Shown: one piece after another, positions 9,621-20,696 of the stretch
Layout: every line of letters begins with the position of its first letter
Position numbering within the stretch: the first letter of the stretch is position 1
Assembly: GCA_019752115.1 (NCBI GenBank)
Contig: JAIEMN010000004.1
Location: forward strand, 62,001-126,000
From: Gemmatimonadaceae bacterium
Lineage (GTDB): Bacteria; Gemmatimonadota; Gemmatimonadetes; Gemmatimonadales; Gemmatimonadaceae
Direction: 5' to 3'
DNA: 64,000 bases
Notes under the pieces: model-generated
What the model saw: only the letters and a program-made list of their open reading frames with translations
Database searches by the model: none
Told to the model about the DNA's origin: nothing
Translations under genes and position numbers: made by a program

Positions 9621-12600
9621 TTATCGCCCGATCTTCTTGAGCAACGCGTCCACCGCCGCGTCGAGCTGCACATCCTTGCCGCTGTACGACTCGCCGACTG
9701 GCCGGGTGACGGGCACGTCAACCTGGCGCGGCACCAGCTCCATGTCCTTCCCCTCGTGGTCGAGGATGCGCGAGAACGGCAGACGCAACGAGCTCTGCCC
9801 ATCGAGCAGCGTCACGTTGCTCGTGAAGATGATCCAGCCCGCGGTGGGCTCGCCGACCACGGGCCCGAGGCCGAGCGCGCGATAGCCTTCGGTGAAGTCT
9901 TCGGCGTCGGAGAGGGAGTGCTGATTCACCACCAACACCGTGGGCTTCTCGAGCGAGCGCTGCCCGAGCTGACTGCGAGCGGGAATGGCCGGCTCGCCGC
10001 GCGGCACCATGGTGAGGTAGCCCTTCCGCGTGAAGACATCGAGTGCATACGGGTTCACGAACCCGCCGTTGTTGTTGCGCACGTCGATGACCACGCCGTC
10101 CTTCCCGAAATTCTCGGCGTCAAGGTCCACGTACAGCTGCGCGAGCGACGGGGCACCCATGTCGAGCATGTGCACATAGCCAAGGCGCCCGTTCGACACC
10201 TTGGCGACGTAGGCGCGGCGTTCTTCGACCCACGCGCGGTACACGAGGTTCTTTTCAGCGGCGAGTGACACCGGGCGCACCGCGACGGTCCGCACGGCGC
10301 CATTGGCGGCCGCGACGCCGAGCTCCACGCGGCGGCCCGCGGTGTTCTGGAGCAGCGAGTCGATGTTCATCGCGCCATCGAGTGCGACGCCCTGAATGCT
10401 CCGCAGCTGATCCCCCACCGCGATGCCGCCGGCCAGCGCGGCGGGGCCCAGCGGAATGAGCTCGGCGACGCGATAGGTGCCGCGTTCGAGCGCCGCGCGA
10501 TCGAAGCGCAGCCCCAGTCGACCAACCGGCTGCGGCGCCACCGGCGCCGGCCCGCTCACGCCCATGTGCGACGCATTCAGTTCGCCAACCATGAGCTGCA
10601 GGATGCGGCGCAGCTCATCCGGCGTTTGTGCGCCCGCCACATAGGGCGCGACGCGCTCGCGGACGCCCGGCCAGTCCACACCGTTCATCTGCGGGTGAAA
10701 GAAGTTGTTGGCCTCCCACCGCCACGCCTGCTCGAACACCGCCAGCTTCTCGGCGTGGAAGTCCACTTCCAGTTCGGCGGTCATGGCCACGGGGCGCGCA
10801 TTGCGCGACTCCACGGTGAGCGCGGTGAGCACACCGCCATCCGTGTACCACAGTTCGCGGCTGTCGGGGCTCCACTGCACGTTGCTCTTGGGGCCGGCCG
10901 TGGTGGTGAGCTGACGCGCCACGGGGGCCTCGCGGGCGGTTTCGTCGAGCGACCAGAGATAGAGATTCGGCTGACCGGAGCCGCTGCTTACGAGCGCGAG
11001 CGACTTCCCGTCGGGCGAAATCGTCGCGGCATCCACCACCAATCCGGGCTGCAGCAGCGTCGCCCGATTGCGAATCCCGTCGAACACGATCTCGGTGCGG
11101 CGCAGTGCTGGCTTCGCGGTGTCGGGCGCGGCAAAGAGGTCGCGGAAGAGATCTTCGCGATAGCGCGGTGTGCGCGGCACGAGATCGACGCGCACGAGCT
11201 GCGCCTCTTCCGTACGCTGCGACGTCTGGTACAGCAGCCAAGTGCCGTCGGGTGCCCACTCGAGGCCCGTGGAAAAGCTGGAGGCCAGGAAGCTCACCTG
11301 CCGGGCCTCGCCACCGTCGGCGGCGACGACCCACACGTTGTCGAAGCCGCGCGTCCCGGTGTTGAGATAGGCAATCCAGCGAGAATCGGGCGACCACGCG
11401 ATCGCCTTGCCACCGGCGAACGGCGCCCGTGAGAAGACGCCGCGCGCGAGCACGCGATCGTTGGTGCCATCGGCACCGACCACGTGCAGCTCGCCGCCGT
11501 TGCGCGTGTAGGCCACGAGCTTGCCGTCGGGCGACACGGTGAGATGCGCGTTGTCTCCGGTGGGGACGATCACCGTCTCCGTACCACCCAGCACCGGCGC
11601 GCGCACGATGGGTGAGGCGCCATCGCGCTGAGCGATGAAGAACACCGACCGGGAATCGCGCCCCCAGACCACCGGCCCATCGGCCGACAGACTGCGCGTG
11701 ATGCGGAGCGCGTCGCCACCATCCTTGGTGCCAGCCGCGAACACCTCTCCGCGCGCGATGAACGCCACCTTCTTGCCGTCGGGGGCGATGCGCACGCTTT
11801 CCCAGCCGCGCGTGAGGGTCACCGGTTCGGTGCCGCGGCCAGCCACCGCACCGCGCAGGGTGATGGCCACGGTGCGCGCCGAGCCGGCGGCGATGTCATA
11901 CGCCCAGATCCCGAAGTCGCGTTCGAAGACGATCGTCTTGCCGTCGGCCGCGATCTGTGGCCAGAGTACGCGCCCGTTGGTGAAACGCGTGAGCTGTTTG
12001 GCGGCGCCACCGGCCACCGGGCGGCTCCAGAGATTCTCCTGACCGCTGCGGTCGCTCATGTAGTAGAGCGTGGCACCGTCGGGGCTCCACTGCGGCCACG
12101 CATCCTTGGCCCCGCCGGGCTCACCCACCCGCCGATACTGCGGCACGTCGCCCAGCGTCACGACCCACAGCTCCGATTCATCGAGATGGCTGTGCCCGTG
12201 CCGCCACCACTGCCCGCTCACGTTGGCGCGGGCATTGATGGCGAGCGACTTGCCATCGGGGGACGGCTGCGCGAAGTACTCCGACGCATAGCGATCCCCC
12301 GCCACGACGGCCGGCGTGCCACCGGTGCTGCGCACGCGATAGACATCATTCATGCCGGCGATGTCGCGCGCGCTGCTCGAGAAGTAGAGCCACTCCCCAT
12401 CGCGCGACCACGCATCGAGCTGCTCGGCGGCATCGTCGTACGTGATGCGCGTGAGCCGCCCGGTGGCGAGCTCCAACACGTAGACATCGCCGTTCCCCGT
12501 GCGGTTCGACACGAACGCGAGCCGCTTGCCATCGGGCGACCAGAGCGGGCGCGATTCGGTCGCGGGGTGCGCGACCAGCAGCCGCGCCTCGCCGCCGCCG

Positions 12601-12761
12601 AGCGGGACGCCCCAGAGGTCCCCGCCGCTGGCGAAGGCGATCTCGCCCTGCGGCGAGAGCGAGGGTTCGGCGAAGGCGGGGCGCGCGGCGACGCGCGCGG
12701 GCTGTGCGAACAGTGGCGTGGCCGCGAAGAGGGCAAGGCACGCGAATCGAATAGAACGCAT
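9621..12761 (-). CDS. Tricorn-type S41 peptidase
   Basis: This 1046-residue protein has a signal peptide (RFACLALFAATPLFAQ), then many beta-propeller PD40/WD40-like repeats (WSPDG, PDGKSLA, SPDSRW) over about residues 30-660. These are followed by the tricorn core C1 helix region (WRWEANNFFHPQMNGVDW), a PDZ domain (about 760-850) and the C2 catalytic domain. The nucleophile Ser is in VLVVNQHSLSDAEDF at about residue 948. The family degrades oligopeptides released by other proteases; this one would act in the periplasm. The gene follows the PF20091-type hydrolase with a 5-bp gap, so they are co-translated. Confidence 0.88.
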   Translation of the reverse strand: MRSIRFACLALFAATPLFAQPARVAARPAFAEPSLSPQGEIAFASGGDLWGVPLGGGEARLLVAHPATESRPLWSPDGKRLAFVSNRTGNGDVYVLELATGRLTRITYDDAAEQLDAWSRDGEWLYFSSSARDIAGMNDVYRVRSTGGTPAVVAGDRYASEYFAQPSPDGKSLAINARANVSGQWWRHGHSHLDESELWVVTLGDVPQYRRVGEPGGAKDAWPQWSPDGATLYYMSDRSGQENLWSRPVAGGAAKQLTRFTNGRVLWPQIAADGKTIVFERDFGIWAYDIAAGSARTVAITLRGAVAGRGTEPVTLTRGWESVRIAPDGKKVAFIARGEVFAAGTKDGGDALRITRSLSADGPVVWGRDSRSVFFIAQRDGASPIVRAPVLGGTETVIVPTGDNAHLTVSPDGKLVAYTRNGGELHVVGADGTNDRVLARGVFSRAPFAGGKAIAWSPDSRWIAYLNTGTRGFDNVWVVAADGGEARQVSFLASSFSTGLEWAPDGTWLLYQTSQRTEEAQLVRVDLVPRTPRYREDLFRDLFAAPDTAKPALRRTEIVFDGIRNRATLLQPGLVVDAATISPDGKSLALVSSGSGQPNLYLWSLDETAREAPVARQLTTTAGPKSNVQWSPDSRELWYTDGGVLTALTVESRNARPVAMTAELEVDFHAEKLAVFEQAWRWEANNFFHPQMNGVDWPGVRERVAPYVAGAQTPDELRRILQLMVGELNASHMGVSGPAPVAPQPVGRLGLRFDRAALERGTYRVAELIPLGPAALAGGIAVGDQLRSIQGVALDGAMNIDSLLQNTAGRRVELGVAAANGAVRTVAVRPVSLAAEKNLVYRAWVEERRAYVAKVSNGRLGYVHMLDMGAPSLAQLYVDLDAENFGKDGVVIDVRNNNGGFVNPYALDVFTRKGYLTMVPRGEPAIPARSQLGQRSLEKPTVLVVNQHSLSDAEDFTEGYRALGLGPVVGEPTAGWIIFTSNVTLLDGQSSLRLPFSRILDHEGKDMELVPRQVDVPVTRPVGESYSGKDVQLDAAVDALLKKIGR

Positions 12762-14911: not shown

Positions 14912-16300
14912 ATGATGCTTCGTCGCGACTTCCTCCGAACCACCGCCGCGTCCGCGGCTGCCCTGTCGCTTGGCCGGCGGGTGCTCGGCGCCGACCCGTT
15001 TCCAGCCGCCGACCGCATGACGTGGTGGCGCGACGCCAAGTTCGGGATGTTCATCCACTTTGGCCTCTATTCCGGCCCCGGTGGCGAGTGGAACGGGAAG
15101 CCCACCGGCTCGCACGAGTGGATGCGGAACAACGCGAAGATTCCGCACGAGGAGTACATCCGCCTCGCCGAGACGTTCAACCCCACCGCACTCGACGTGG
15201 ACGCGTGGGTGCGCACCGCGAAGGACGCCGGCCAGAAGTACATCGTCTTCACGACCAAGCATCACGAAGGGTTTGCGCTCTTCGACAGCGCCGTGTCGCC
15301 GTACACGGTGATGCACACGCCGTACAAGCGGGACATCTGTGCCGACCTGGCGCGCGCCTGCCGCAAGCATGACATGAAGCTCGGCTGGTACTACTCCATC
15401 ATGGACTGGTATCACCCCGACTATCTGCCGCGCCGGGACTGGGAGCAGCAGGGGGCGACGCGACGGGACGCCACCGGCGCCGATTTCTCACGCTATCTGG
15501 CGTTCATGAAGGCGCAGCTTCGCGAGCTGCTCACCAAGTATGGGGACATCGCCGTGCTCTGGTTCGATGGACAGTGGGAGAGCACGTGGACGCACGCGGC
15601 CGCGCTCGAGCTCGAGGCGTACTGCCGGAAGCTCATGCCCAACGTGATCATCAACGATCGGATCGACGTCGGCATGCCCAAGGAGCCCCCCGAGGGCTAT
15701 CGACGCGCCGGTGATTACACGACGCCCGAGCTCACTGTCCCCGAGCGCGGCCTTCCCGGGCAGGACTGGGAAACGTGCATGACGATGAACAAGAACTGGG
15801 GCTACGCGAAGGACGACAGCGAGTGGAAATCGGTGCCGGAGCTCGTGAAGCTGCTGGTTGGCACCGCGTCGCGCGGCGGCAATCTGCTGCTGAACGTGGG
15901 CCCCGATGGCAGCGGGCGCATTCCGCCCGAAAGCCTCGCCGGGCTCCGCGGCATGGGCGCCTGGCTGCGCACGAATGGCCGCGCGATCTACGGCACCAAG
16001 GGCAATCCGTTCGATCGCGGGCTGCTCGTCCAGCGCGCGGGCGTCCGCACACCAGTGCGCGTCACGCGCGGCGATCGTACGCTCAACCTCTTCGTGGAGG
16101 AATGGCTGGGCGGCCCGCTGGTGCTGCCGGGTGTGCGTCAGGCGCCACGGGCCGCTACGGTGCTGGGTGCTGCGGCGGTGCCGATCGAATGGGAGCAGAC
16201 GCCGGCGGGACTGACACTCACGTTCGGCGAGCGTGGTCCGAATGCCGTGATGCCGGTGGTGCAGTTGCGCTTCGAATCGGTGTTGCGGATTACGGAGTAG
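14912..16300 (+). CDS. Alpha-L-fucosidase, GH29, Tat-exported
   Basis: This 462-residue protein has a twin-arginine signal (MMLRRDFLRTTAASAAALSL) and the GH29 signature through its catalytic domain: WWRDAKFGMFIHFGLYS, IVFTTKHHEGFALFDS, LGWYYSIMDWYHPDY, and the nucleophile Asp219 in VLWFDGQWE. It removes terminal alpha-L-fucose from glycans. The length fits a catalytic domain plus a small C-terminal beta domain. Start is either ATG 14912 or 14915. It is divergent from the hydrolase gene and overlaps the convergent paralogue gene by 11 bp at its 3' end. The nearby sulfatase is consistent with use of fucosylated, sulfated polysaccharide (inference). Confidence 0.9.
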   Translation: MMLRRDFLRTTAASAAALSLGRRVLGADPFPAADRMTWWRDAKFGMFIHFGLYSGPGGEWNGKPTGSHEWMRNNAKIPHEEYIRLAETFNPTALDVDAWVRTAKDAGQKYIVFTTKHHEGFALFDSAVSPYTVMHTPYKRDICADLARACRKHDMKLGWYYSIMDWYHPDYLPRRDWEQQGATRRDATGADFSRYLAFMKAQLRELLTKYGDIAVLWFDGQWESTWTHAAALELEAYCRKLMPNVIINDRIDVGMPKEPPEGYRRAGDYTTPELTVPERGLPGQDWETCMTMNKNWGYAKDDSEWKSVPELVKLLVGTASRGGNLLLNVGPDGSGRIPPESLAGLRGMGAWLRTNGRAIYGTKGNPFDRGLLVQRAGVRTPVRVTRGDRTLNLFVEEWLGGPLVLPGVRQAPRAATVLGAAAVPIEWEQTPAGLTLTFGERGPNAVMPVVQLRFESVLRITE

Positions 16301-17213
16301 ACGTCAGCGGCACGCGGCGCCAATCGTCTCCGCCGATCGCGGCGCCGATGGGCCACCCGATGAGCCAGCCGTAGCCAGCACCAGCGACCGCGCCGAGGGC
16401 GAGACCGGCCGCCGCGCCTTGGCCGCCGCCCCAGCCACCGATCGCGGCGCCCATCACCCCGAGGCTGACGGTCCCGATGATCGCGCCGATCTTGCCACCA
16501 CGTCGGCCGCCACCCTTCGCCGTGCGACCGGCGTAGCGCTCGAGCCGCGTGATCCCGGCCCAGTCATATGCCGTCACCGCGGCCCCATTGGTGATCCGCA
16601 GCGAATCCCTCTCAACCGCAGCGACGGTGCCGAGCACCCGTTTAGTAGTCGGCGTGGCAAAGCGCACGACCTGACCCGATACGAGCAGCGGGCGATCAGC
16701 GAGGAGGATCGGTGTTGCTGCGGACGTCGCCGCTACGGGTGCAGCTGTTGGCGTGGCGGCGGCCACCGGCGTCGCGGCGGGCACGGCGGGCGCCACGGGC
16801 GCACTCGGCAGCACCGCCGCCGTCCACGACTCACCGCCGATCACCGCGCCAAGGCCGGCCCCCACAGCGCCGCCCATAGCAATCCCCGCGCCGCCGCCGA
16901 GCAGTCCCACGCCCATCCCCCACAGCACGCCGCGCCTGACGCCGCCGGACGGCGTACGCCCGCGCGACCGCTGGACATCGGTGAGCGAGCCGATGAGCAG
17001 CGATTCCGCGTACCCCGCGTCGGTCTGCACCACCAGCGTGTCCCCACGCTGCGCGACCAGCGTGCCGGTGATGCGCTGCATCGAGGGGGTTCGTCGTACG
17101 CGCAGGCGCTGCTCCACGCGGATCGTATCGAGCGTCTGCGCCGAGAGGGGAGCGCCACTGGCGACCAGCGAGAATATCGCCACGAGTGGCGTCACGCGGA
17201 GTCGTCGAGTCAT
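16290..17213 (-). CDS. Exported glycine-zipper paralogue 3 of 3
   Basis: This 307-residue protein has a signal peptide (VTPLVAIFSLVASGAPLSAQ) then two similar halves. Each half has a beta-rich segment (first: IRVEQRLRVRR, ITGTLVAQRGDTLVV, TDVQRSRGR; second: VVRFATPT, VLGTVAAVERDSLRI, ITRLERYAGR), a basic stretch, a Gly-rich helix-hairpin and a Trp-containing end (ESWTAA; GDDWRRV). An Ala/Pro-rich linker (about 150-195) joins the halves. It shares this plan with the two genes upstream. Function unknown; the Gly-rich parts look like glycine zippers that insert in or lie on a membrane. ATG overlaps the upstream TGA (ATGA). Confidence 0.75.
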   Translation of the reverse strand: MTRRLRVTPLVAIFSLVASGAPLSAQTLDTIRVEQRLRVRRTPSMQRITGTLVAQRGDTLVVQTDAGYAESLLIGSLTDVQRSRGRTPSGGVRRGVLWGMGVGLLGGGAGIAMGGAVGAGLGAVIGGESWTAAVLPSAPVAPAVPAATPVAAATPTAAPVAATSAATPILLADRPLLVSGQVVRFATPTTKRVLGTVAAVERDSLRITNGAAVTAYDWAGITRLERYAGRTAKGGGRRGGKIGAIIGTVSLGVMGAAIGGWGGGQGAAAGLALGAVAGAGYGWLIGWPIGAAIGGDDWRRVPLTSTP

Positions 17214-18196
17214 CGCCGGGAGGATTCCAGGTGAATGGTGCGCCAATCATCGCGGGGCATCGTCTGCCCGATCAGGCTTCCCAGGCCAGCGCCGATCCCG
17301 CCAAAGAGCGCCGCGCCCGCCAACACGCCGGTGGCCTTGCTGCTGTTGGGGTTGCACACATCAAAGCAGATGTTGGAGAGGGCCAGACCAACGAGCCCGC
17401 CCAGCGCCACGCCGATCGTGCCGCCAACGATGCTGCCGTGCACGGCGCCGGCCCGGCTGGTCTTTCCGTAGTAGCGCTGCAGGCCGACGACCTCGCGCAG
17501 CGGATAGCGCAGCGCGAGACCACCACGGTCGAGTAGCAGTGAATCGTCGGTGGCCGCGATGACCGTGCCGGCGACGCGCTCGGTGGCCCCGTTCGCGCGA
17601 AAGCGAATGACATCGCGCGGCGTGAGCGCGAGCAGGGTGTGTCGGAGGGGCGGCGGCTCGCTGGGTCGCGGTGTGACGCGATCCGGCGTCGCGGGAGCCA
17701 GCCCACTCGTGTCTACGGTCCTCCGCGCGACCGTCGTACCCGACGCGGGCATCGCCAGGACCGCGAGACGCCACCGCTCGGGCCGACGCAGGGCGCCAAT
17801 GACGCCACCCAGGGCCGCCCATGTTCCAATGGCGCCGACCACCTCGGCGCCCTTCATGCCGTAGGCGCCACCGAGGGCCATGACGCCACCGCCAATCGCC
17901 GCCCCCCAGAGAGCATCGTGCCGCGCCCCGCGCGTGCGGCTGCGTCCGAGTGACCGCTCGAGCTGCTGCACCGAGCGGCCGAGGGCGCGTTGCGTGAACG
18001 CACCGCCGCGGAGCACCAGCGTGTCGCCGGTACGCGCCTCGAGCGTGGCCGTGATCGGTCGCATGTCGCCGGCGATCTCGACCCGCACCCGATCGCCAAC
18101 GCGCACGGTGTCGCGGGGCTGGGCCTGTGCCGGGCGTGGTGAGGTGCCGTGTACCACGCCGAGCAGTAACAGGGCGACTTTCGTGCGCCGGTTCAC
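17210..18196 (-). CDS. Exported glycine-zipper paralogue 2 of 3
   Basis: This 328-residue protein has a signal peptide (VALLLLGVVHGTSPRPAQAQ) and the same two-half plan as its neighbours. Half one has VRVGDRVRVE, ATLEARTGDTLVL, VQQLERSLGRS and ends RRPERWRLA; half two has DVIRFRAN, VAGTVIAATDDSLLL, VVGLQRYYGKTSRAG and ends RDDWRTIHL. The second Gly-rich segment carries two Cys (NICFDVCNPNSSK), absent from the paralogues. GTG start overlaps the previous stop (GTGA) and the gene overlaps the next by 4 bp, so all three are one translationally coupled operon. No known family assigned. Confidence 0.75.
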   Translation of the reverse strand: MNRRTKVALLLLGVVHGTSPRPAQAQPRDTVRVGDRVRVEIAGDMRPITATLEARTGDTLVLRGGAFTQRALGRSVQQLERSLGRSRTRGARHDALWGAAIGGGVMALGGAYGMKGAEVVGAIGTWAALGGVIGALRRPERWRLAVLAMPASGTTVARRTVDTSGLAPATPDRVTPRPSEPPPLRHTLLALTPRDVIRFRANGATERVAGTVIAATDDSLLLDRGGLALRYPLREVVGLQRYYGKTSRAGAVHGSIVGGTIGVALGGLVGLALSNICFDVCNPNSSKATGVLAGAALFGGIGAGLGSLIGQTMPRDDWRTIHLESSRR

Positions 18197-19203
18197 TTGC
18201 GGAGATCCTCGCGCCGCACCGTGCGCCAGTCATCGGCGGGGTGCGCGGCACCCATCGGATAGGCGTAGGCAAAGCCGACACCGGCACCGAGCGCGCCCAT
18301 CCCCAGCGCCGCGCCCGCGTAGTTCGGCTGACGCGTCGCCGCGCCCAAGCCGGCGAGGGCCATGCCGGTCAGCGCGCCCAGCACGCCACCCACGGCGGCG
18401 CCGCGGGCGCCCATGCGCATCCCGCCGGCACGCGCCGTGCGCCCGTAGTAGCGCTCCAGTCGGTCGATCGCGTCGAACGACAGCCGCTGCTCGATGCCGC
18501 CGCGCAGCACGCGCAGCGAGTCCTGCGACGCCGCCACCACCGTGCCCTGCAGGCGCGGCGCGGAGAAGCGCGAGTACCGAATGACATCACCCGGCGAGAG
18601 CACGCGCGAGGTGTGCAGCAGCGTTTCTGACGCGGGGATGGAATCGTAGACCACGCCGGCGGTCACGACCGGCCGCGTCGGCGTCGCCGCCGCGGTGACC
18701 GGGTCGGTCGGGCTCGCAGGTACGGCGGCCGCGGCAGACGCCACCGGGGCGGACGTGGCGATGGTGATGGAGCGCCACCGCTCGTCCGGCTTGAGAGCAC
18801 CGGCCACGGCGCCGAGCGCGGTCCAGGAGAGCACAACGCCGGCCGTACTCTGCCCCCCCGGAAAGACGGCCTGGTTTGGTTCGCGAATGGCCGCCAACAC
18901 GCCCCCCCCGATCGCACCAACCACCGCACCCTTCTTCGCGCTGGCCGAACTGCTCCGTCCAATCGACCGCTGCACATCGCGCATCGCCAACGGATGCAGC
19001 CGGTGGGTCATCCCGTCCGAATCGCGGATGACCAGGGTGTCCCCCCGCCGGTCGATCACCGTACCCACCAGCCGATGCGAATCGCCGAGTCGCCGAAAGC
19101 GCAGGCGGTCGTTCACCCGCACCTCATCGGAGGATTGTGCGCCAAGAACCGGCGGCAGGCAGACCAGGGCGACCAGAGCGAGGATGCGGTTGGGAGCGAG
19201 CAT
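18193..19203 (-). CDS. Exported glycine-zipper paralogue 1 of 3
   Basis: First gene of the three-gene paralogue operon, 336 residues. A signal peptide (RILALVALVCLPPVLGAQ) is followed by half one (VRVNDRLRFRR, LVGTVIDRRGDTLVI, MRDVQRSIGRSS, AKKGAVVGAIGGGVLAA, ending DERWRSI) and half two (GDVIRYSRF, LQGTVVAASQDSLRV, IDRLERYYGRTARAGG, then Gly-rich, ending PADDWRTVRRED). The linker is Ala/Thr/Pro-rich. Short KOW/SH3-like beta segments followed by a glycine-zipper hairpin are a reasonable reading, but no named family is recognised. It is divergent from an ArsR gene; palindromes at 19274-19297 lie in the shared upstream region. Confidence 0.75.
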   Translation of the reverse strand: MLAPNRILALVALVCLPPVLGAQSSDEVRVNDRLRFRRLGDSHRLVGTVIDRRGDTLVIRDSDGMTHRLHPLAMRDVQRSIGRSSSASAKKGAVVGAIGGGVLAAIREPNQAVFPGGQSTAGVVLSWTALGAVAGALKPDERWRSITIATSAPVASAAAAVPASPTDPVTAAATPTRPVVTAGVVYDSIPASETLLHTSRVLSPGDVIRYSRFSAPRLQGTVVAASQDSLRVLRGGIEQRLSFDAIDRLERYYGRTARAGGMRMGARGAAVGGVLGALTGMALAGLGAATRQPNYAGAALGMGALGAGVGFAYAYPMGAAHPADDWRTVRREDLRK

Positions 19204-19338: not shown

Positions 19339-19354
19339 ACAACCATATGGTTGT
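19339..19354. promoter_or_regulatory. ArsR-type operator spanning the start codon
   Basis: ACAACCATATGGTTGT is a perfect 16-bp palindrome, and the ATG of the ArsR gene (19347-19349) lies in it. Inference: the ArsR protein represses its own operon here by blocking polymerase. Confidence 0.65.
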
Positions 19355-19715
19355 ACGTTCTTCGCTCACCGATCCGGAACTCGACCGGCTCTTCCGCGCC
19401 CTCGCCGATGCCACCCGCCGCGACATCGTCGCCCGGCTGCTCGCCGGCGAAGAGGCCTCCGTCTCGGCGCTCGCCACCCGCTACGACATGTCCTTTGCAG
19501 CCGTGCAAAAGCACGTCGCCGCGCTGGAGGAGGCCGGCCTGGTGTCCAAGGAATCGCGCGGGCGGGAGCGGATCGTCCGCAGCAACCCCGAGCGCCTCGC
19601 GCAGGCGCGGGCCCTTCTCTTCCAGCTCGAGCAGCTGTGGATCGCCCGCTTCAGCCAGCTCGACGACGTCCTCGCCGATCCGCAGTTCGACTCCCCACCG
19701 CCTCGCCCGGCCTGA
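19347..19715 (+). CDS. ArsR family transcriptional regulator
   Basis: This 122-residue winged-helix protein has LDRLFRALADATRRDIVARLL and the recognition region MSFAAVQKHVAALEEAGLVSKE, typical of the ArsR subgroup that accompanies SRPBCC genes. No CxC metal-binding motif is present, so it is not an arsenic-type metal sensor. It is followed after 3 bp by an SRPBCC gene. The ATG sits inside a perfect palindrome, which implies a very short or absent mRNA leader if this start is right; the protein pattern gives no better start downstream. Confidence 0.85.
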   Translation: MVVRSSLTDPELDRLFRALADATRRDIVARLLAGEEASVSALATRYDMSFAAVQKHVAALEEAGLVSKESRGRERIVRSNPERLAQARALLFQLEQLWIARFSQLDDVLADPQFDSPPPRPA

Positions 19716-19718
19716 GCC

Positions 19719-20696
19719 ATGCCCATTACCGACGTCATCTCCAACACGCAGGACCTCACCCTCACGGTGATCGCCGAGTATCCGGTGCCGGTGACGCGCC
19801 TCTGGGACGCCTACGCCGATCCGCGCCAGATCGAACGCTTCTGGGGCCCGAAGGAGTGGCCCGCCACCTTCACGCGCCACGACATGGCCGTGGGCGGCGA
19901 GTCGCACTACTACATGACCGGCCCGGATGGGCAGCAGTCGAAGGGCTACTGGAAGTTCCTCGCGGTCGAGCCGTATCAGTTCTTCGAGGTGCAGGACGGC
20001 TTCGCGAACGAGGCCGGCGAAGCGAACCCCGACATGCCCTCCATGCGCATGATCTTCCGCTTCGACAGCACCGCCACCGGCTCGCGCTTCACGAGCACCA
20101 CGTGGTTCACGAGCCTCGAGACGATGGAGCAGCTCGTGCAGAGGGGGATGATGGAAGGGATGAAGTCGGCGATGGGCCAGATCGACGAGGTCGTCACCGA
20201 CCTCCAGTCATACGCCGTCGATTGCGCGACCAACGCGCAGCTCCTGAGCGACACGCAGGTGCGTATCAGCCGCATCATTCGCGGCACGCCGCAGCAGGTG
20301 TGGCGGGCCCATCACGAACCGGCGCTGCTGCAGCGGTGGCTGCTGGGGCCGGATGGGTGGACGATGCCGGTGTGCCAGGTCGCCACGCACGTGGGCGACC
20401 GCTATCGCTACGAATGGCAGCACAGCGCCGACCCGCAGCAGCGGTTCGGCTTCGAAGGCGAACTGCTCGAAAGCGCGCCGCCCTATCGCGCGGTCACCAC
20501 CGAGCGCATGGCGGGCACCCCCGGCCCGTCCACGCGCAATGAACTCACCATGACCGCCGTACAGGGCGGCACGCTCCTGAGCCTCGTGATTACGTACCCG
20601 AGCAAGGACGTGCGCGACATGATCCTGGGCACCGGCGTGACCACCGGCATGGAGACGAGCTACCAGCGACTGGAGCGCGAGTTGCTCGCCGGTTGA
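19719..20696 (+). CDS. Two-domain SRPBCC (AHSA1-like) protein
   Basis: This 325-residue protein carries two SRPBCC/AHSA1 domains. The first (about 15-165) contains FPVPVTRLWDAYADPRQ-like text (YPVPVTRLWDAYADP) and ERFWGPKEWPATFTRHDM; the second (about 180-325) contains RIIRGTPQQVWRAHHEP and LLQRWLLGPDGW. The fold has a deep hydrophobic ligand pocket. Most relatives are single-domain, so this is a tandem duplication. It is co-transcribed with the ArsR gene, a common pairing in which the ligand-binding protein's role is still poorly known. Confidence 0.82.
   Translation: MPITDVISNTQDLTLTVIAEYPVPVTRLWDAYADPRQIERFWGPKEWPATFTRHDMAVGGESHYYMTGPDGQQSKGYWKFLAVEPYQFFEVQDGFANEAGEANPDMPSMRMIFRFDSTATGSRFTSTTWFTSLETMEQLVQRGMMEGMKSAMGQIDEVVTDLQSYAVDCATNAQLLSDTQVRISRIIRGTPQQVWRAHHEPALLQRWLLGPDGWTMPVCQVATHVGDRYRYEWQHSADPQQRFGFEGELLESAPPYRAVTTERMAGTPGPSTRNELTMTAVQGGTLLSLVITYPSKDVRDMILGTGVTTGMETSYQRLERELLAG

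Follow-up and report, generated by a model that had tools for sequence, protein, structure and literature searches.

A tandem gene triplet of two-unit glycine-zipper proteins in a Gemmatimonadaceae bacterium and its single-unit relatives across the phylum

Three overlapping genes and their six half-units

The window analysed here, a 64,000-nucleotide stretch of a Gemmatimonadaceae contig, carries three consecutive minus-strand genes, designated A, B, and C. Gene A (18193..19203), the first in the operon, starts with ATG and encodes 336 amino acids; gene B (17210..18196) starts with GTG and encodes 328; gene C (16290..17213) starts with ATG and encodes 307, a longer reading with a TTG start also being possible. 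Adjacent genes share 4 bp, GTGA at 18193-18196 between A and B and ATGA at 17210-17213 between B and C. Third-position GC is 0.80 to 0.85 in all three, a coding-type value that supports genuine coding. The best genome match of gene A is gene A itself (E value of 1.5e-213).

All three products are predicted to be exported. The signal peptide of A (19138..19203, minus strand; residues ~1 to 22, ending in VLGA before Q) was placed from the peak of a hydrophobic segment together with a reading of the sequence. N-terminal hydropathy indicates an export signal clearly in A and C and more weakly in B, and by sequence reading the N termini of A, B, and C lack a lipobox cysteine. Coordinates and signal peptides confirm the outline given by an earlier, sequence-only reading of this DNA, which had described three consecutive genes with 4-bp overlaps encoding exported proteins of 307 to 336 residues.

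The surroundings are of mixed character. Convergent with gene C, at 14912-16300, is an alpha-L-fucosidase gene (PF01120) with a twin-arginine-like leader, MLRRDFLRTTAASAAALSLG. Divergent from A, positions 19347-20696 hold an ArsR-type regulator and then a protein with two AHSA1 stretches, a common pairing. A Tricorn-like protein with a PD40 propeller, Tricorn_C1 and S41 peptidase domains, and an apparent signal peptide is encoded at 9621-12761.

Each protein consists of two related units, all given here on the minus strand. The N-terminal unit of A (18754..19128; residues ~26 to 150) comprises a predicted barrel, a short hairpin, and a strand with the motif ERW, and its C-terminal unit (18211..18618; residues ~196 to 331) comprises a barrel, a hairpin, and a strand with DDW. 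The units of B lie at 17753..18112 (residues ~29 to 148) and 17222..17632 (residues ~189 to 325), and those of C at 16815..17132 (residues ~28 to 133), where the hairpin loop is the shortest, and 16305..16712 (residues ~168 to 303). Among the six halves, only the C-terminal unit of B has a pair of cysteines in the hairpin loop, Cys277-x3-Cys281 (17354..17368).

Paralogy of the three genes, as first proposed from the sequence, is borne out by blastp, with E values of 3e-45 for A against B, 2e-39 for C against A, and 2e-29 for C against B. The proposed relatedness of the halves holds as well. Half-against-half blastp gives 8e-11 for A1/B2, 7e-8 for B1/B2, and 3e-8 for A1/A2, and in Smith-Waterman alignments all 15 half pairs score above every one of 500 shuffles, with Z scores from 5 to 32. 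The least similar halves are the two of C itself, which reach 3e-5 at best by blastp yet are clear in the shuffle test. The plan that had been described, of beta strands, a DSL or DTL turn, an [ST]xGR line, a basic stretch, a Gly-rich hairpin, and a Trp, recurs, apart from minor deviations, in each of the six halves.

The N-terminal halves of A, B, and C are closer to one another than to their own C-terminal halves, and the C-terminal halves likewise. In a tree of 89 units, built from 145 columns by a quick method and with most forks unresolved, the N-halves of the window form one clade (SH-aLRT support of 97) and the C-halves another (92). Separate clades of this kind imply an order of events in which duplication and fusion came first and tripling second. 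The simplest history would thus be that a unit was duplicated and fused once in the lineage of the window, and that the fused gene was then tripled.

A family of single-unit relatives

Of 61 genomes searched with a profile of the six halves, 31, that of the window among them, encode short exported single-unit proteins that match it. A second profile, built from 16 single-unit members without the window sequences, recovers the unit from 181 of 298 sampled genomes across the phylum, in 85 of 119 genera, with up to ten copies per genome; a single-unit protein has ~190 residues. Plasmid records yielded no match. Similar proteins may also occur in Acidobacteriota and Bacteroidota. This profile also matches both halves of A, B, and C with E values of 1.5e-11 or better, over a shorter stretch in the N-half of C. 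The single-unit proteins are thus homologous to A, B, and C by profile and have in common with them the predicted barrel and zipper hairpin, the Trp, and the export signal. They differ in having one unit rather than two, in that most carry a cysteine pair in the loop, and in that many carry a C-terminal tail, which is absent from the window halves.

Single-unit genes also occur in tandem, as pairs and in one run of four, with 92 to 227 bp between matches. The genome of the window itself has such a pair on another contig (C29, locus L037, 180-1135), each gene with a loop cysteine pair. The run of four consecutive single-unit genes is found in a class-level relative (locus L064, 6994-9232), with 117 to 176 bp between matches, and is an unfused parallel to the six units of the window.

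Two-unit fusions are present in at least four other genomes, namely G371 (loci L057/L085), G045 (L018/L086), G249 (L100), and G229 (L104); these were found by inspection of long open frames, so the count is a lower bound rather than a census. Once the four had turned up, the idea that double units are unique to the genome of the window was dropped. Halves of these other fusions are scattered on the 89-unit tree, and the fusions are weakly suggested to be independent events.

A run of three fused genes was seen only in the genome of the window. Whole-protein searches of 61 relatives, 395 genomes of the phylum, and 179 of the family recovered the triplet from its own genome only, and a three-protein profile run against the genome collection gave no match. 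The sequence-only reading had proposed a candidate undescribed membrane-associated system and had pointed to other Gemmatimonadota genomes as the place to look for the operon. What those genomes hold is the unit and some two-unit fusions, not the triplet; the unit is free-standing throughout the phylum, and no gene travels along with it. That reading was therefore correct as an observation and only partly so as an interpretation, and the triplet is better described as a lineage-specific amplification of a common envelope protein family that has no name.

The absence of a traveling partner comes from a comparison of 26 unit loci, in which no conserved partner gene recurs. Protein kinases, together with beta-propeller proteins, make up the only widely recurring cluster near the units. 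A motif test places six kinases in the ~0.35 to 0.4 Mb around the units, against roughly three to four expected (~1.7 times background) from a rough estimate of 236 in ~25.6 Mb of six whole genomes, and a kinase-unit link was not adopted. Kinase domain matches are very numerous, at 98, 46, and 42, in three whole genomes of the phylum (G225, G028, and G195, respectively).

Alignment of 89 units reveals a sharp pattern of conservation. Gly6 (93%), Arg10 (97%), Asp31 (93%), Gly58 (92%), and Trp129 (99%) are near invariant. There are two runs of five glycines with a spacing of four, one in each predicted helix, which make up two near-perfect GxxxG zippers. The first has Gly at columns 64, 68, 72, 76, and 80 in 69 to 94% of units; the second has Gly at 113, 117, and 121 in 88 to 99% and at 105 and 109 in 44%. 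All six window halves keep Arg10, Asp31, Gly58, and the Trp, and between 6 and 10 of the 10 zipper glycines remain in each, while identity between the window copies is 34 to 43%.

The loop of the predicted hairpin has a distinctive cysteine content. Among 83 units outside the window, 23, 1, 55, and 4 have zero, one, two, and three loop cysteines, respectively, such that 78 have two or none; cysteines outside the loop are rare, with 68 of the 83 lacking any. A Poisson model of equal mean predicts 28 single-cysteine loops where one is seen, with a nominal P value of 1e-16 that treats related sequences as independent and so ignores shared ancestry. Loop cysteines thus appear to be kept or lost jointly, as a disulfide predicts, implying a loop that is not cytoplasmic. 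Export is likewise a property of the family as predicted: 73 of 78 relatives pass a crude signal peptide test, compared to 73 of 244 neighboring open reading frames, the test being lenient and run on stop-to-stop frames.

Predicted fold and comparison with known families

An AlphaFold2 model of a single-unit relative, made from ten sequences, has a pLDDT of 85 to 89 over most of a small barrel. Its strands span residues 10 to 15, 21 to 30, 33 to 37, 43 to 47, and, after a short turn, 51 to 61; helices at 62 to 82 and 102 to 124 and a strand at 126 to 132 follow. In an AlphaFold model of protein A from three sequences, the order of strands and helices is the same in both halves, each being modelled as a five-strand Sm/Hfq-like barrel, a hairpin, and a closing strand, with the second half more confident. 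The structural kinship of the halves anticipated from sequence is thus also predicted by the model. Helix regions are less confident (pLDDT of ~55 to 72, and ~35 to 60 in the N-half of A), and the pTM values of the models are 0.49 and 0.37.

The closest solved folds to the barrel are of the Sm/Hfq type, with a best Z score of 8.2 and an rmsd of 2.2 over 57 residues; the Foldseek E value is only ~0.01, and a Z score near 8 is only suggestive, as it can reflect merely a common arrangement. Next comes a mechanosensitive channel, YbiO (7a46), whose Sm-like domain aligns with a Z score of 7.8 and an rmsd of 1.9 over 55 residues. Some alignments, to YaeO and Rpp29, start in the barrel and extend past the hairpin, suggesting that the modelled strand after the hairpin and Trp may close the barrel. 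Matches to transporters and to MBT and Tudor repeats were set aside, their rmsd being large.

The sequence-only reading recognized no named family, and searches of Pfam, NCBIfam, PHROGs, and PDB sequences likewise return nothing above curated cutoffs for A, B, or C. Single-unit relatives have weak matches to glycine-zipper families and DUF6232, below the cutoff wherever a score was given. PF13441 (Gly-zipper_YMGG) scores 23.3 and 18.7 bits in two single-unit members against a cutoff of 28.9, and PF13488 (Gly-zipper_Omp) scores 13.6 bits in B against a cutoff of 25, with no match in A or C. Zipper length is similar in these two families, but the matches are confined to the zipper, the models being of 45 to 46 positions without a barrel. 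DUF6232 (PF19744) gives 13.2 bits in B (E value of 0.13) and 24.6 in the best single-unit member against a cutoff of 27.4; the weak match, found in 6 of 16 single-unit members, covers the strand, zipper, and Trp region.

Three known systems resemble parts of the plan. First, SlyB is a glycine-zipper outer-membrane lipoprotein. Like the window units, the SlyB/Rick_17kDa_Anti two-transmembrane lipoproteins (PF05433) combine export to the envelope with a glycine-zipper hairpin. SlyB has a lipid anchor and a different domain order, whereas the window units lack a lipobox and place the barrel mainly before the hairpin; PF05433 has no Pfam match in A, B, or C, and its best single-unit match has an E value of only 0.0034. 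Second, the predicted barrel of the unit may have the fold and strand order of Sm/LSm/Hfq proteins, and like them it has an Asp where strand 2 turns into strand 3, but the unit is exported and fused to a predicted membrane hairpin. Profile searches give no Sm/LSm/Hfq family match for the window proteins or the single-unit members, and, as regards the cytoplasmic RNA binding of Sm proteins, the signal peptides argue against a cytoplasmic site. Third, the beta domain of the MscS family, as in YbiO, sets an Sm-like barrel beside a Gly/Ala-rich membrane helix, similar to the unit. The order is reversed, however, with helix then barrel in MscS and barrel then hairpin in the window unit, and the MS_channel Pfam profile matches neither A, B, and C nor the single-unit members searched; an MscS-type channel was not adopted.

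A putative zipper protein of the envelope

Taken together, the data lead us to favor, tentatively, an oligomeric envelope protein that would sit probably in the outer membrane with its barrel in the periplasm. Each half would be one copy of an envelope unit common in the phylum and exported via Sec, and since the signal peptides put the barrel outside the cytoplasm, the five-strand Sm/SH3-like barrel would come to lie in the periplasm. The paired glycine-zipper helices, which support as a prediction the membrane association suggested in the sequence-only reading, would span a membrane as a hairpin, the outer membrane being the likeliest, and the strand past the conserved Trp would pack back onto the barrel. 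In most free-standing members, a disulfide between the helices would place the loop outside the cytoplasm. A hairpin that crosses the membrane has its loop on the far side, and a disulfide there would point to the outer rather than the inner membrane.

Tight helix packing is driven by glycine zippers, according to Kim et al. 2005 as cited in PMC5380434, and SlyB assembles into transmembrane rings that encircle outer membrane proteins (PMC13067283). Zipper packing and the SlyB rings favor an oligomer in the outer membrane whose barrel would lie in the periplasm. The zippers would allow hairpins to pack tightly on one another, with a homo- or hetero-oligomer as the probable product that could seal, stabilize, or gate a patch of membrane, as proposed for SlyB rings. 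Duplication, fusion, and tripling of one unit gene would have given six barrels and six hairpins per operon, which probably co-assemble. Five of the six window halves lack loop cysteines and the loops of the N-halves are short, so these copies may have given up some of the ancestral role.

Anchoring in the inner membrane, with a periplasmic barrel and the short loop in the cytoplasm, is in our view unlikely but deserves the most weight among the alternatives. The units would then act as small subunits of a scaffold or channel, recalling the pore helix of MscS together with its Sm-like beta domain, a picture to which the resemblance of the barrel to YbiO and the modelled helices, whose 19 to 32 residues suit the inner membrane, both lend support. 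In that topology, however, the loop disulfide would be exposed to the reducing conditions of the cytoplasm, although the cysteines are paired; the lack of an MS_channel match and the opposite domain order also speak against it. Slightly less likely still are soluble periplasmic or membrane-peripheral proteins whose glycine-rich helices merely pack on the barrel. Helix hydropathy in the window proteins is indeed modest (19-residue means of ~1.1 to 1.9) and the helix part of the models uncertain, but two zippers with up to five glycines spaced by four are typical of tightly packed membrane helices.

We consider it improbable that the triplet arose as a neutral amplification, by now partly degenerate and devoid of a separate role, with function confined to single-unit genes at other sites. 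Its restriction to one genome, the loss of cysteines from five of six halves, and the shortened hairpins of the N-halves would fit; against this, the three genes are intact, with their 4-bp overlaps and coding-type third-position GC, and despite the low identity between copies the Arg10, Asp31, Gly58, and Trp of every half and most zipper glycines are kept. Very improbable here are secreted toxins, or proteins that aggregate, on the model of the Cdz two-peptide bacteriocins, with tandem copies diversified by competition. Zippers, tandem paralogues, and patchy copy number do recall Cdz-like systems, but Cdz proteins have 84 to 86 residues and are encoded next to genes for type I secretion and immunity (PMC5380434), whereas A, B, and C are long, Sec-exported proteins with a conserved barrel, their neighbors are a fucosidase and an ArsR/AHSA1 pair, and the 26 loci compared share no partner gene.

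The favored outer-membrane reading, if true, would add to the outer membrane an alpha-helical element that carries an Sm-like barrel on its periplasmic side, and would make glycine-zipper function testable outside Proteobacteria. A far more speculative extension, to which we give very little credence, is that A, B, and C co-assemble as a six-barrel hetero-ring, an exported Sm-like ring on an outer-membrane glycine-zipper pore; such a structure would amount to an undescribed kind of channel or seal, alpha-helical and set in the outer membrane, derived from single-unit homo-oligomers. Whatever the role, the window exposes an abundant family of predicted exported proteins in a poorly studied phylum, unnamed in the family libraries used. 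The sharp, testable signature of this family combines two zippers, each with as many as five glycines, a Trp that almost never varies, and a loop with paired cysteines. The window also illustrates how a unit can be doubled, fused, and tripled; related genomes, for their part, have tandem genes and fusions of their own.
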